Shown piece by piece: positions 36,828 through 45,810 of a stretch of DNA of 64,000 nucleotides. Each line of letters starts with the position of its first letter. The stretch's first letter is position 1. The stretch is from an uncultured Lachnospiraceae bacterium (lineage in GTDB: Bacteria > Bacillota > Clostridia > Lachnospirales > Lachnospiraceae): positions 1 through 64,000 of the forward strand of contig CAJOFQ010000001.1 of the NCBI GenBank assembly GCA_905233955.1, given 5' to 3'. Made by a program: the position numbers and the translations under genes. The notes under the pieces are model-generated. The model worked only from the letters and a program-made list of their open reading frames with translations, searched no databases and was not told the DNA's origin.

Positions 36828-37583
36828 ATGATTAAATTAAAAGAAAGATGGCGCAAATTGGCAGTTGTCGCTTCAGTATTTTCTGTAGTCTTGGGGATGT
36901 GCAGCGCAATCGCGGCTCCTGCTGCCGAAGGTTATGTAGCATCTGCAGCAAGTATTTCTGAATCCAAGGCCAGGCAGATAGCTCTTAGAAATGCAGGTGT
37001 CAGCAGCAGTAAAGCTTATGCGCTGGATAGCTCTACCGAGACAACAGAGGGCAGAAGTACTTTTGCAGTTTCGTTCTACAAGAAGAACAGCGAGACCAGC
37101 TATACTCATTATTATTACAACATCAATAAGAGCAATGGAAGCATTGTAAAGAAGTCATCCAAGCAATATACTACCATCAGTGCCAGCCGTGCCAAGGATA
37201 TTGCTCTTGACGATGCTGGATTTAGCAGAAGTGAGGTAGACGATCTGTCTGCAGAGTTTGATGAAGATGATGGCAAGCTGGTTTGGTATGTTTCATTTGA
37301 TGCAGATGATGACGATGATGACGACGATGATGATGACTACGATTACTACTACTATAGCAATGGTACTTATTACCCTTATTATTACTATGGCGGTACATAT
37401 TCTTACAGCGGACGCACCTACTATACTGAGAGCAACGGCCGTGTGTACTACTATGACAGTGACGGAAATAAGCAGTATACCACAACAACAGTATATTATC
37501 GCCGCAGCAAGGACAATGACGATGATGAAGAAAGCTATGATTATGTGATCAATGCCGTTAATGAGAATATCATTTCTGACTGA
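36828..37583 (+). CDS. Secreted protein with two PepSY-like repeats and Asp/Tyr-rich tail
   Basis: ISESKARQIALRNAGV and ISASRAKDIALDDAGF repeats; start MIKLKERW after GGAGGGAG. Confidence 0.8.
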   Translation: MIKLKERWRKLAVVASVFSVVLGMCSAIAAPAAEGYVASAASISESKARQIALRNAGVSSSKAYALDSSTETTEGRSTFAVSFYKKNSETSYTHYYYNINKSNGSIVKKSSKQYTTISASRAKDIALDDAGFSRSEVDDLSAEFDEDDGKLVWYVSFDADDDDDDDDDDDYDYYYYSNGTYYPYYYYGGTYSYSGRTYYTESNGRVYYYDSDGNKQYTTTTVYYRRSKDNDDDEESYDYVINAVNENIISD

Positions 37584-37594
37584 TGATTCTGCGT

Positions 37595-37836
37595 TATGAT
37601 TCAAGGGGTAAAATACCTTTTGAACCTAGCATAATATGATATGAGGGTCAAAAGGTATTTTGCCCCTCATTAATGATACGCAGCAGCACATTACATGTGC
37701 AATTTGCTGCTAAAACATTCGCAATTCTCGTGGATTTTTGTGTAAAATCCACTGCATTGCTCATGTTTTGTGGGTCATAAAGTCACAAATTTCCATGCAA
37801 GCATGAAAATTGTGACCTTTTGACCCTTGTATCATA
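37595..37836. repeat. MITE-like/hairpin intergenic element, copy 1
   Basis: Terminal repeats TATGATATGAGGGTCAAAAGGT (37635-37656) and reverse complement TATGATACAAGGGTCAAAAGGT (37815-37836); internal hairpins; an extra inverted arm at 37595-37627. Confidence 0.75.
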
Positions 37837-37867
37837 ATAAGGGAAGCGATTGAATTCGTTTCCCTTG

Positions 37868-38209
37868 GGGCCAGTAAAGGTTTCGACAGGGATCTTAAAG
37901 CCGGAGAAGCGAGCCGCACGGGAGGCGTTACATTCCAAAATTAAATTTAAATGCTGACGATTACGAATTAGCATACGCTGCCTGATTATGGCAGCAGTCC
38001 GCCTGAGGGTACCCATCCCTTCAGATACGGGCTTCGATCAGATGGGAAACGACATATACTAAGCTTTGCGTATATGGGCGTATTATGAAGCTACCGATCA
38101 TGTCAGGGTGTCCGTTTTCGGTCATGTGAGGGAATGTAAATAATGGACTACGCTCGTAGAAGGACGGGGGATGGGTTTTTGGACGCGGGTTCGATTCCCG
38201 CCTGGTCCA
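37868..38209 (+). ncRNA. ssrA: Transfer-messenger RNA (tmRNA)
   Basis: GGGCCAG/CTGGTCC acceptor stem, GGTTCGATTCCCGCC T-arm, tag ORF ending ...GAATTAGCATACGCTGCCTGA in a hairpin. Confidence 0.93.
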
Positions 38210-38254
38210 GTTGATGTAGAAATATTAAAGAGTTTTATAAAAAAATAGAGAATC

Positions 38255-41024: not shown

Positions 41025-41903
41025 ATGAAAGATAAATTTAAAATCACTGGATGTGTTTTGTGTATTATACTGATTTTAATAAGCATAATAGTAGTATCTC
41101 CGTATGCCGGTGATATTAAGAATTATGAAAATATAAATAAGACACTTGATGAAAAGCGTACATCTGTCATTGAAATCTCAGCGGTTATTAACGGGTTGTC
41201 CCTGGTCATAGCTGCGGTACCCGGAGATGCAACAACGCCAATATCTAATGAGATATCCCAGTTTAATACATATCTTGTAATAGCTCTCGCTGCTATAATG
41301 TTTGAAAAATTTATACTTCCGTTGTTAGGATTGGTAGTGTTCAGATTTATTGTACCTGTGATGCTTACAGCTTTATTATTTTATATTATATTCAGGAAAC
41401 GAAAGCTTCTGGAGGTTTGCATACACCTTTTTGCGTTAAGTGTTGTATTAATGACCATAATTCCATTAGGAATAAAGGGTGGAGCTATTATAGATAAAAG
41501 CTTTGGCACAGATAATCTGATTTCCGAGTTAAAGGCTGAAATGGAAAACATAAATGATCTGTACAAGGAAGCTGAACATAACGAAGAAGATTCTGATAAT
41601 AACTATTCCGAAGGGGCCGTTTCATTTTTTGATGGCTTATATGACAAATTGAAAGACTCTGCGGACGATGTCAGCAGCATCATAAAGGAAACAGTTACAA
41701 AAAATTCGGACTTGATAAAGGAAAAATCAAAAGTGATAATAAGCAGGATAATGGATGTGTTGGCAGTAATCATTGTATCAAATGTTGTGTTGCCTATATT
41801 GTCACTCCTTGTTATGTGCTGGGCGATCAAAACTGCTTTAACAAATATATTTCTGTTTGAACCGGAGATAGATGTATCAAAGCTTATCTCGAAAAAGAGT
41901 TAG
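41025..41903 (+). CDS. Hypothetical multi-TM membrane protein
   Basis: Several TM helices; ordinary composition. Confidence 0.7.
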   Translation: MKDKFKITGCVLCIILILISIIVVSPYAGDIKNYENINKTLDEKRTSVIEISAVINGLSLVIAAVPGDATTPISNEISQFNTYLVIALAAIMFEKFILPLLGLVVFRFIVPVMLTALLFYIIFRKRKLLEVCIHLFALSVVLMTIIPLGIKGGAIIDKSFGTDNLISELKAEMENINDLYKEAEHNEEDSDNNYSEGAVSFFDGLYDKLKDSADDVSSIIKETVTKNSDLIKEKSKVIISRIMDVLAVIIVSNVVLPILSLLVMCWAIKTALTNIFLFEPEIDVSKLISKKS

Positions 41904-42691
41904 ACAATTTTTTCAAACAATCCAAGCTTTTCACAGGCCTGATATATTCCGTCCTGGTCTACAGGAGCGGTGATATAGTCAGCCCGTTCCTTGACTTCCG
42001 GGACTGCATTGCCCATAGCCACCTTGTACCATCCGTCATCTGTGAACATGGACAGGTCATTAAGTGCATCTCCAAACACCACTGCATCCTTAAGATCTGC
42101 ATTAAAATGCTGCATAACCCGTTTGATGCCGTATGCTTTGTCTGCCGGTTCTACAAAAATGTATTCCTTGTGGAAACGGCACCAAGGGAGCTTTTTTAGG
42201 GATTCAAGAGCCTGCTCATCGGGCTCATAGCAGGCTATGTATGCTTTGTAGATATTATCATAATTGCGCGGATCAAGTCCCGGGACTATCCTGGTATTCA
42301 TGTATTTATCATCGGAAAATTCTTCAAAGCTTTTGTCAGGAGTAAAGCGGATTTTGGAGTCCTCCACCTGAAGACCCCAGGGGTATCCTTTTTCTATACA
42401 TTCATCAATAAGCTCTATTATATCTTCTTTTGGAAGGGGAGTTATGCCCAGGAATTCCCCGTCAATAGTTGCTCCGTAGCCTCCATCGCTTATCATATTA
42501 TCAAAATCCAGCTGCTGCATATAATCGGTGGCCATTGCATGCATCCGGCCTGTGGCAATACACATAAAATGACCGGCGTCCCTAAGCTTTTTAAGCGCAA
42601 GCTGTGTGGATTCAGGTATAAAACCGGCTCCGTATCCTCCTGCAACCAGTGTTCCGTCTATATCGAAGAATAAGTATCTTTTCTTAGCCAT
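41900..42691 (-). CDS. HAD-superfamily Cof-type phosphatase
   Basis: YLFFDIDGTLVAGG; VVFGDALNDLSMF. Confidence 0.92.
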   Translation of the reverse strand: MAKKRYLFFDIDGTLVAGGYGAGFIPESTQLALKKLRDAGHFMCIATGRMHAMATDYMQQLDFDNMISDGGYGATIDGEFLGITPLPKEDIIELIDECIEKGYPWGLQVEDSKIRFTPDKSFEEFSDDKYMNTRIVPGLDPRNYDNIYKAYIACYEPDEQALESLKKLPWCRFHKEYIFVEPADKAYGIKRVMQHFNADLKDAVVFGDALNDLSMFTDDGWYKVAMGNAVPEVKERADYITAPVDQDGIYQACEKLGLFEKIV

Positions 42692-42729
42692 GGTCTGCTC
42701 CTTTTTTATTCAAACATTTCAAAGAATAC

Positions 42730-42844
42730 TATGATGTTGGGGTCAAAAGTATTTGCCCCCAACTTAATTCGTGTTTGGGCGGGTCACAAAGTCTCAAATC
42801 ATTGCGCAAGCGCATGATTTGGACCTTTTGACCCTGATATCATA
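42730..42844. repeat. MITE-like/hairpin intergenic element, copy 2
   Basis: TATGATGTTGGGGTCAAAAGT at left and ACCTTTTGACCCTGATATCATA at right; two internal hairpins homologous to copy 1. Confidence 0.75.
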
Positions 42845-42992
42845 CTATATCTCATTATAATCACTTTTTCAATTATGGATTAATGCTTGCATTTACGGTA
42901 CAAATGTGATAATATCACAAAAGTTGTCTTTATGTAGATTGATTTAAGAGCTTTGTTTTTGGCAGAGCGTACTTATACAGGAGGATATCATA

Positions 42993-43232
42993 ATGTTAAA
43001 AGTAGTTTTAATGGTTGCTTTTATTCTTATTAGCGTAATACTTACGGTGATTATTTTATCACAGGAGGGCAAGCAGGCAGGACTCGGTTCCCTAAGCGGC
43101 CAGAGTAACACGGACAGTTATTGGAGCAAGAACAAAGGACGCTCCAGAGAGGGTATCCTTGTAAGGGTTACGACGGTTTTGGTTGTTCTATTCTTTGTTT
43201 TGGCTGCGGTTTTGTGTATCGGAAGTCTCTAA
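42993..43232 (+). CDS. secG: Preprotein translocase subunit SecG
   Basis: ILSQEGKQAGLGSLSGQSNTDSYWSKNKGRSREG; upstream of rnr. Confidence 0.93.
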   Translation: MLKVVLMVAFILISVILTVIILSQEGKQAGLGSLSGQSNTDSYWSKNKGRSREGILVRVTTVLVVLFFVLAAVLCIGSL

Positions 43233-43270: not shown

Positions 43271-43379
43271 GTCATATGGGGGATTTTGTATTAGGAGCCT
43301 GGTACTGTCCAATGAACACGAAGTGTGAATTGATGACTCTAAAGGACTAGCTTCGCGTCGCAGTAGAGGAGATATTGTT

Positions 43380-45395
43380 TTGAAAAAAGAATTAACAGGT
43401 TTATATAGACAAAATGTCAAGGGATTTGGATTTGTAACCGTAGAAGGTTATGATGAGGATTTTTTTATTTCCAGAGATAATCGGCTTAATGCTTTTAATA
43501 TGGATATGGTAAGCATAGTTCTTCTGCCCGAGAGAAGCGGCAGCCGTTGTGAAGCAAAGATAGTTGCAGTTAAAGAAAGGGCAGTAGACTCTTGTATAGG
43601 AGTTTTTGAACGAATTGGTTCTTCTGGTCTATTATATCCTGATGATCAGAAGCTTCCTCCTGTGATTCGCATATCACACAAAGGTTTTAATGGAGCTATA
43701 GGAGGCCAGAAGGTTGTCTGCAAAATATTATCCTATGGCGGCAAGGAAAAAAAGAGTCTTCCGGAAGGAGAGGTAACTGAAATACTGGGATTTAAGGATG
43801 ATCCCGGTGTGGATGTAATGTCAGTTGTTTATAAGTACAGGGTGCCTGTGGATTTTGACACTGAGGTTATAAAGGAATCAGAAGGTTTGCCCAAGAGCGT
43901 ATCCAAGCGTGATATGAAACATCGTTTGGATCTTACTGCAGCAAGGACGATAACCATAGACGGAGATGATACAAAGGATTTTGACGATGCCATATCCATA
44001 GAGCGAAAGGGCGATGGATATGTACTTGGCGTGCATATTGCTGATGTTTCTCATTATGTTAAGGAAAATTCCTGCCTGGATAAAGATGCTTTAAACAGGG
44101 GCACCAGTATCTATCTGGCTGACAGGGTTATTCCAATGCTTCCAGAAAGGCTGTCTAACGACATCTGTTCTCTAAAGGAAAAAGAAAATCGACTTACATT
44201 AAGTGTTTTGATGCGCTTTGACGCCAAGGGGCGTATTATGGACTATGATATTGCTGAATCAGTAATATGTGTGGATCATAGGATGACCTATAGTCAGGTT
44301 AACGAGATATTGTCCATGAATAATCGAAGCCTGTGTGTAAAATATGCTGACATTCTGGGAGATCTTTTCCTGATGGAGGATCTGGCAAAAAAGATCAGAA
44401 AAAGGAGAACGCGGCGTGGAGCAATAGATTTTACATTCCCTGAAGCCAAGATTAAGCTGGATGATTCAGGCCGGGCAATCGATGTTGTAGTCCTGGATCG
44501 GGGCGTTTCTGAAATGATGATTGAAGATTTCATGCTGTCAGCAAACGAGACGGTTGCCACTGAATTCTCATTAAGAAAGCTGCCTTTTTTATACCGTAAT
44601 CATGATAAGCCGGATGAAGATAAGATTATATCACTTCGAAAAACAGCAGCCGGTTTTGGCATACAGCTTGGGGGCAAAGGCGGCAAGGTAACTCCCAAGC
44701 ACCTTCAAAGGTTTATAAAAAAGCTTAAGGGTCTTCCACAGGAGGATTTGTTATCCATACTTACACTTCGTTCCATGGCAAGAGCCGAATACTCTGATAG
44801 CAATCTGGGCCATTTTGGCCTTGCTTCGGAGTATTATTGTCATTTTACATCGCCCATTCGCAGATATCCTGATCTGATCGTTCACAGGATCATCAAGGAA
44901 TCGCTGCATAATAAGATAAAAAAGAAAAGAAAAGAGCATTATGCTTCAATTCTTCATGATATTGCCGAAAGAAGCAGCAGCTCGGAACGGCAGGCGGATG
45001 AGCTTGAACGGGATGTAACTAAGATGAAAATGGCGGAATATATGCAGGATCATGTTGGAGAAATTTTTACAGGCCGTATTTCCGGAGTTACACAGTGGGG
45101 ATTCTATGTTCAGCTTCCTAATACTGTTGAGGGAATGGTTCCGCTGCGTATGATCACTGATGACTATTATGAGTTTAATGAGGAAGCTCAAACCCTAACT
45201 GGTGTCAGAACTCACCGTGTATTCACTCTTCAGGATGAAGTGACTATCAGGGTGGATCGAGTGGATGTGGCGGCAAGGATGATCGATTTTTGCCTGTATG
45301 AAGAAATGAGTCAAAAGTCTCACAAGCAAAAAAGGAGAAAGCATGGCGGAAAAAAAGCTAAGATCAATAGCAAGGAACAAAAAAGCAAGTCATGA
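43380..45395 (+). CDS. rnr: Ribonuclease R
   Basis: TTG start; RNB motif DGDDTKDFDDAIS; S1 domain GRISGVTQWGFYVQLPN. Confidence 0.96.
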   Translation: MKKELTGLYRQNVKGFGFVTVEGYDEDFFISRDNRLNAFNMDMVSIVLLPERSGSRCEAKIVAVKERAVDSCIGVFERIGSSGLLYPDDQKLPPVIRISHKGFNGAIGGQKVVCKILSYGGKEKKSLPEGEVTEILGFKDDPGVDVMSVVYKYRVPVDFDTEVIKESEGLPKSVSKRDMKHRLDLTAARTITIDGDDTKDFDDAISIERKGDGYVLGVHIADVSHYVKENSCLDKDALNRGTSIYLADRVIPMLPERLSNDICSLKEKENRLTLSVLMRFDAKGRIMDYDIAESVICVDHRMTYSQVNEILSMNNRSLCVKYADILGDLFLMEDLAKKIRKRRTRRGAIDFTFPEAKIKLDDSGRAIDVVVLDRGVSEMMIEDFMLSANETVATEFSLRKLPFLYRNHDKPDEDKIISLRKTAAGFGIQLGGKGGKVTPKHLQRFIKKLKGLPQEDLLSILTLRSMARAEYSDSNLGHFGLASEYYCHFTSPIRRYPDLIVHRIIKESLHNKIKKKRKEHYASILHDIAERSSSSERQADELERDVTKMKMAEYMQDHVGEIFTGRISGVTQWGFYVQLPNTVEGMVPLRMITDDYYEFNEEAQTLTGVRTHRVFTLQDEVTIRVDRVDVAARMIDFCLYEEMSQKSHKQKRRKHGGKKAKINSKEQKSKS

Positions 45396-45810
45396 TTATT
45401 TTTTCGAAGAAATATATGAGGCGGGAATATGCCTTGTAGGTACAGAGGTTAAGTCGCTTCGTATGGGCAAGTGTTCCATTAAGGAAGCCTTCATACGAAT
45501 TGATAATGGTGAGGCAATTATTTACCAGATGCATATATCTCCTTATGAGATGGGCAATATATTTAACAAGGATCCCATAAGACCAAGAAAGCTGCTGCTT
45601 CATAAACAACAGATCAGAAAGCTGCAGGGTCAGATAACACAGCAGGGTTATACCATTGTCCCGGTAGAAGTGTACTTTTCGAAGGGTCTGGTAAAGTTAA
45701 AAATTGCTTTGGCAAAAGGTAAAAAGCTATATGACAAGCGGCATGACATAGCTAAAAAGGATCAAAGAAGAGAAGCGGAAAGAGAGTTTAAGGTTAGAAA
45801 CCTTCGCTGA
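45343..45810 (+). CDS. smpB: SsrA-binding protein SmpB
   Basis: GICLVGTEVKSLRMGKCSIKEAFI; KKLYDKRHDIAKKDQRREAER. Confidence 0.97.
   Translation: MAEKKLRSIARNKKASHDYFFEEIYEAGICLVGTEVKSLRMGKCSIKEAFIRIDNGEAIIYQMHISPYEMGNIFNKDPIRPRKLLLHKQQIRKLQGQITQQGYTIVPVEVYFSKGLVKLKIALAKGKKLYDKRHDIAKKDQRREAEREFKVRNLR

Follow-up and report, generated by a model that had tools for sequence, protein, structure and literature searches.

The Clostridiales-1 RNA motif as the core of a small transposable element: a shortened copy in a Lachnospiraceae genome

Introduction

RUP, NEMIS/Correia and ERIC/BOX are bacterial MITEs (non-autonomous transposable elements) with structured transcripts. Clostridiales-1 (RF01699) has been described from the side of RNA and catalogued for years as a probable small RNA (sRNA) of unknown function. 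Its table entry in Weinberg et al. (2010; PMC2864571) is that of a probable RNA, not cis-regulatory, from Clostridiales and the human gut. Our search of the literature on RF01699 turned up no description of the motif as a MITE or other transposable element; the additional files of Weinberg et al., a possible place for such a discussion, lay outside that search.

The sequence considered here, called the window, is a stretch of 64,000 nucleotides from an uncultured Lachnospiraceae bacterium (contig CAJOFQ010000001.1). A preliminary description of the window reported two copies of a structured repeat and proposed that the second, copy 2, had been kept by selection on its fold. We believe, with a probability of roughly 85%, that copy 2 is a MITE that lost its middle by internal deletion and is one of dozens in its genome. 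Our most careful claim is that the known RNA motif Clostridiales-1 is the core of this MITE.

Results

Copy 2 and its relation to RF01699

Both copies are present where the preliminary description placed them, and copy 2 ends in ATGATGTTGGGGTCAAAAG and CTTTTGACCCTGATATCAT. The exchange of the hairpin A stem was also borne out (GTTGGGG/CCCCAAC in copy 2, ATGAGGG/CCCTCAT in copy 1), as were the different apex and arms of hairpin B and a length that falls short of full-length members by about 90-100 bp. The putative conserved loop, TCAAAAGGTATTTTG, is conserved, but most of it is stem (CAAAA/TTTTG) and it includes the terminal repeat, so its conservation needs no loop function. The predicted fold of copy 2 is much better than that of shuffled sequences on either strand (z -6.5 and -6.8).

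A covariance model, R1, was built from 29 full-length members, copy 1 included. Copy 2 scores 80.6 bits with R1, which bounds it exactly at the terminal repeats. With RF01699 it scores 32.7 bits on the minus strand, under the 48-bit gathering cut-off, because its core has been deleted; copy 1 lies above that cut-off. Copy 2 is a relative of Clostridiales-1 by its common ends and by model R1, not a member of RF01699 by Rfam's rule. The features of the window are collected in Table 1.

Table 1. Elements, target duplications and neighbouring genes in the window.
Feature	Position	Strand	Basis
Decayed 40-bp unit made of two terminal repeats, abutting copy 1	37596-37635	 	Sequence; R1 23.1 bits over 37583-37635 (weak match)
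Target duplication AAT, one flank of copy 1; doubles as last bases of the 40-bp unit	37633-37635	 	Sequence
Copy 1, full-length type-1 member, 200 bp	37636-37835	-	R1 143.5 bits; RF01699 78.4 bits over 37674-37834
Target duplication AAT, opposite flank of copy 1	37836-37838	 	Sequence
tmRNA gene, 32 bp past copy 1	37868-38212	+	tmRNA match
HAD-family hydrolase gene, with copy 2 upstream	41900-42691	-	Pfam PF08282
Target duplication ACT, one flank of copy 2	42728-42730	 	Sequence
Copy 2, internally deleted type-2 member of the Clostridiales-1 MITE, 113 bp	42731-42843	-	Model R1 and terminal repeats at both ends
Hairpin A of copy 2, GTTGGGG...CCCCAAC	42736-42763	-	Sequence, fold; covariation of outer three pairs
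Internal-deletion junction of copy 2, CACGAA/TTAAGTTGGG on minus strand; core stems 2 and 3 gone	42764-42769	 	Comparison with full-length type-2 copies
Hairpin B of copy 2, minus-strand apex GCTTGC	42781-42834	-	Sequence, fold
Target duplication ACT, opposite flank of copy 2	42844-42846	 	Sequence
secG, divergent from the hydrolase gene	42993-43232	+	Pfam PF03840

The 40-bp unit beside copy 1 is a third unit that was absent from the preliminary description. Copy 1 sits immediately upstream of the tmRNA gene. By eye, the string TTGTGA-17 bp-CATAAT is seen at 37813-37838, across the end of copy 1 and the AAT duplication, with the tmRNA gene about 30 bp further on; the insertion of copy 1 may have created a candidate hybrid promoter here. 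The tmRNA gene of the window is about 7 kb from a frame (45343-45810) that follows an rnr-like gene and is probably smpB, and in two congeners (L302, L303) tmRNA comes directly after a gene that reads as smpB.

Ends, copy number and target duplications

Members of the family begin and end in terminal inverted repeats of 19 bp, ATGATnnnnGGGTCAAAAG. The window holds four 12-mer matches to these ends (0.27 expected), and the source genome (1.56 Mb, about 66% complete) holds 95 ends at two or fewer mismatches, 41 of them exact, compared with none in a reversed control. Exact ends occur in 33 of 120 genomes of Lachnospiraceae. At least 118 stretches of the element were found in genome contigs and, among the matches listed, most come from Lachnospiraceae, Clostridiales or Eubacteriales records. 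Eubacterium ramulus ATCC 29099 (L196, L237) is one carrier that is in culture. Eighteen units of the source genome are bounded by paired ends and range from 200 down to 38 bp; overall, units measure 38-250 bp, reach dozens of copies and carry no gene.

Elements elsewhere are flanked by a duplication of exactly 3 bp in 26 of 46 cases and of 4 bp in five. When left and right flanks were paired at random, 3-bp duplications numbered 2.3 on average and nine at most. In the source genome, nine of the 18 units have 3-bp duplications and three have 4-bp duplications.

Presence and absence at one site in relatives, which is a mark of a MITE, is seen at the junction of pheS and pheT, two genes that we identified by reading the sequence, not by profile search. 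Ten relatives (L306 to L315) have the junction without an insertion. In L242 an element of 198 bp occupies it, whereas L305 has a remnant of 40 bp between TCAA/TCAA, and L318 has another remnant. For the two copies of the window, no clean empty site was found among the congeners compared since gene order at these loci differs: the congeners' tmRNA lies beside an smpB-like gene without the element, and the hydrolase gene of G005 is in a different context.

Insertions are oriented at random with respect to genes (18 versus 16). This speaks against the element serving as a leader of host mRNAs and agrees with Weinberg et al. (PMC2864571), who judged the motif not to be cis-regulatory. A 5'-leader or promoter-linked element was considered and dropped on this ground and because TATAAT with one mismatch is about as frequent in sense as in antisense (39 versus 31). 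In seven of 80 cases an exact TATAAT is found no more than 15 bp from the left end (1.9 in shuffled sequence).

A full-length element also has matches on a Butyrivibrio fibrisolvens plasmid (NZ_CP146964.1, 132011-132194, one of three places on the plasmid) and, at MT835871.1 13732-13939, among unannotated human faecal records filed as phages.

Subfamilies and shortened forms

Copy 1 resembles type-1 copies, and the left part of copy 2 is identical or nearly so to several other copies of type 2. As the two copies belong to two subfamilies, the compensatory differences between them predate the spread of the copies and were fixed in source elements. Deletion has removed stems 2 and 3 from copy 2, together with the inner partner of its outer stem. 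The core stems are gone from many sister copies too; the deletion junction of copy 2 was found in none of the other copies that we read.

The preliminary description held that the element seems modular. We do not uphold this, as the shorter forms look like internal deletions and L305 retains 40 bp of a 198-bp element at the pheS-pheT junction. We propose that short units such as copy 2 would arise in place by deletion. The 40-bp form has the sequence expected if a deletion had joined GGGTCAAAA in the left end to its direct repeat GGGGTCAAAA in hairpin A's inner arm, and it may have arisen in this way.

Other short repeats occur near the family. One, GCGACGCGAAGCTAGTCCTTTAGGGC, is found in hairpins of Clostridiales-1 elements of different genomes (L003/L011, L112, L186, L014), and a near copy of it lies in the window at about 43330-43356 on the minus strand, between secG and the rnr-like gene. 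Another, GAACACTTAGCGAACGC...GTGAGAGTGTATGC, is near or inside elements of several genomes (L193, L226, L228, L253).

Fold and covariation

Covariation was judged by pair counts against shuffled and slid-partner controls. Conserved secondary structure with covariation, a mark of Clostridiales-1, is found in the full-length members: they keep the outer stem, hairpin B, two core stems and often hairpin A, with extensive compensatory change. In a sequence-only alignment of 29 divergent full-length members, 21 of the 23 core pairs have two-sided changes, and the core is paired in 93.9% of cells, compared with 76.2% after shuffling and 31-45% when partners were displaced by one to three columns. 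In 19 of the 44 right ends all of the outer three pairs of hairpin A are complementary, compared with a mean of 4.8 and at most 11 after shuffling; this hairpin is missing from some full-length members. Hairpin B has many different arms, with less than 80% likeness between them (40 groups by greedy clustering). Most of these groups, not all, form the same hairpin, some being truncated or unrelated sequence. Of about 88 hairpins, 63 have the apex GCTTGC. In a model-fitted alignment, the outer stem is closed by an internal stretch of the GGYATCA type, which covaries with the variable positions of the left terminal repeat across about 180 bp. RNAalifold paired both terminal repeats with one another; these pairs hardly vary and thus provide no evidence for the fold.

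G-T pairs outnumber A-C mismatches in the model-fitted alignment (131 versus 30; more G-T in 31 of 40 columns, p = 0.0007), whereas on the sequence-only alignment the same tendency (19 versus 5 cells) is not significant per column (8 versus 3, p = 0.23). Of the 29 members, 24 keep a tandem G-A loop, and a loop of the GGGA/GGA type also persists. Such features are more suggestive of a single strand, be it RNA or DNA, than of a duplex palindrome.

The proposal of a folded nucleic acid is supported in that the fold is conserved in the family and both the core and hairpin A covary. The contrast with a decaying repeat is not supported, for copy 2 is itself decayed, its core stems deleted.

A candidate transposase

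Units that start with the family ends and continue differently led us to longer elements of autonomous type, with matching ends, in other Lachnospiraceae genomes. One (L145) is about 1.85 kb, is flanked by a CAAT duplication and has an intact transposase frame of 559 aa. In the second (L144), which has a GAC duplication, the frame is broken by a frameshift. The transposase contains DDE_Tnp_1_6 (PF13751, 3.4e-11) and DUF772 (PF05598, 2.8e-10). Its best profile is IS1182 of NCBIfam at 120.6 bits, below the cut-off of 270, so we call it IS1182-like, not IS1182. Related transposase genes in G043 and G056 are adjoined by an end of the form ATGATnnnnGCGTC.

Transposases of this type were found in five of the 120 Lachnospiraceae genomes. 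Exact ends occur in four of these five and in 29 of the 115 others (p = 0.02), a modest association. No such transposase was found in the source genome, at about 66% completeness, or in five congeners, and a search of plasmids with the end of the longer elements gave no match. The MITE and the transposase-bearing elements have only their ends in common.

A repeat with GCGTCAAAAG-type ends (GGCTTCGTCAATTTGCACATTCGCC...) adjoins Clostridiales-1 ends or has recombined with them (L081, L088, L125/L145); in G115 it lies directly beside a transposase-bearing element.

Discussion

We propose that an IS1182-like transposase, acting in trans on the same ends and leaving duplications of 3-4 bp, moves the Clostridiales-1 MITE. 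We infer this link from the similarity of the ends and the like length of the duplications.

What the fold does is the least certain part of our account. We tentatively suggest, at somewhat less than even odds, that source copies work as transcribed RNA and that the fold is kept for this reason. The non-canonical loops and the fixed apex of hairpin B favour this reading; the random orientation to genes sits uneasily with a role in read-through transcription.

The best surviving alternative, which we regard as possible and no stronger than that, is that the hairpins act as DNA and that the IS1182-like enzyme depends on the end stem-loops for transposition or for its choice of target. IS1272, of the IS1182 family, is reported to target and replace stem-loops (PMC5678879). 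Both ends of the Clostridiales-1 MITE form hairpins that include the terminal repeat, and units abut each other at 37596-37835 and in L089. However, IS1272 is reported to leave no target duplication, whereas the MITE has duplications, and hairpin A is absent from some full-length members. Further, the core stems covary as well as the ends, and no preference for G-T over A-C would be expected of a DNA cruciform.

It is also conceivable that palindromes are kept by mutation, with template switching copying one arm onto the other and so mimicking compensatory change without selection. Long, deletion-prone hairpins with many different arms would suit such a process. Yet it should erase internal mismatches, and the tandem G-A loop, the GGGA/GGA-type loop and the GCTTGC apex persist; nor does it fit an outer stem that covaries over so great a distance. 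We consider this explanation unlikely.

To return to transcribed RNA, the folded core might act in the mobility or control of the element itself, for instance by binding the IS1182-like transposase in trans. We put this forward as a long shot. If true, this would be a DDE-type MITE that depends on a conserved RNA carried by itself.

The Rfam type of RF01699, 'Gene; sRNA', implies a stand-alone sRNA gene, or else a cis-regulatory leader, with the copies as paralogous RNA genes. The conserved fold and the RNA-like motifs agree with this, as does the listing as a probable RNA in the table of Weinberg et al. (2010; PMC2864571). As a full account it is already contradicted by the target duplications and the empty site. 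It also leaves aside the terminal repeats, the lack of gene-orientation bias, a model that ends before the right end of the element, and the frequent deletion of the RNA core with retention of the ends. We therefore hold it to be very improbable. Least credible of all is a single-strand-DNA element of the IS200/IS605 or REP type, whose tyrosine transposase would recognize the terminal hairpins, because such elements are not known to have terminal inverted repeats or to make target duplications, and the Clostridiales-1 MITE has both, and because elements with the same ends encode a DDE transposase.

Taking Clostridiales-1 as the core of a MITE has several consequences. On present evidence, a motif filed as a probable sRNA becomes part of a transposable element, many copies need re-annotation, Rfam would gain a corrected right boundary, and there is a reason for the absent gene context. 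To keep a folded shape while the letters change is unusual for such DNA. This raises the question of why a multi-stem fold is kept across genera in a MITE, a kind of element that is mostly taken for passive DNA.

RF01699 and the MITE have the same core sequence and fold. They differ in extent: the Rfam model covers only the left 165 nt or so, as an sRNA, whereas the mobile unit extends to the right terminal repeat and lies within target duplications. The model also misses shortened forms such as copy 2.

Among known MITEs, RUP, NEMIS/Correia and ERIC/BOX are likewise short, gene-less, intergenic and present in high copy number, with terminal inverted repeats and the ability to form hairpins. 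The Clostridiales-1 MITE is unlike them in its multi-stem fold with compensatory change across genera, its non-canonical loop motifs, its near-fixed apex and the ends that it has in common with an IS1182-like element. Finally, its presumed driver resembles the IS1182 family, to which IS1272 belongs, in domain content and best profile, and differs from IS1272 in that 3-4-bp duplications accompany the element, whereas IS1272 is reported to replace stem-loops without duplication (PMC5678879).
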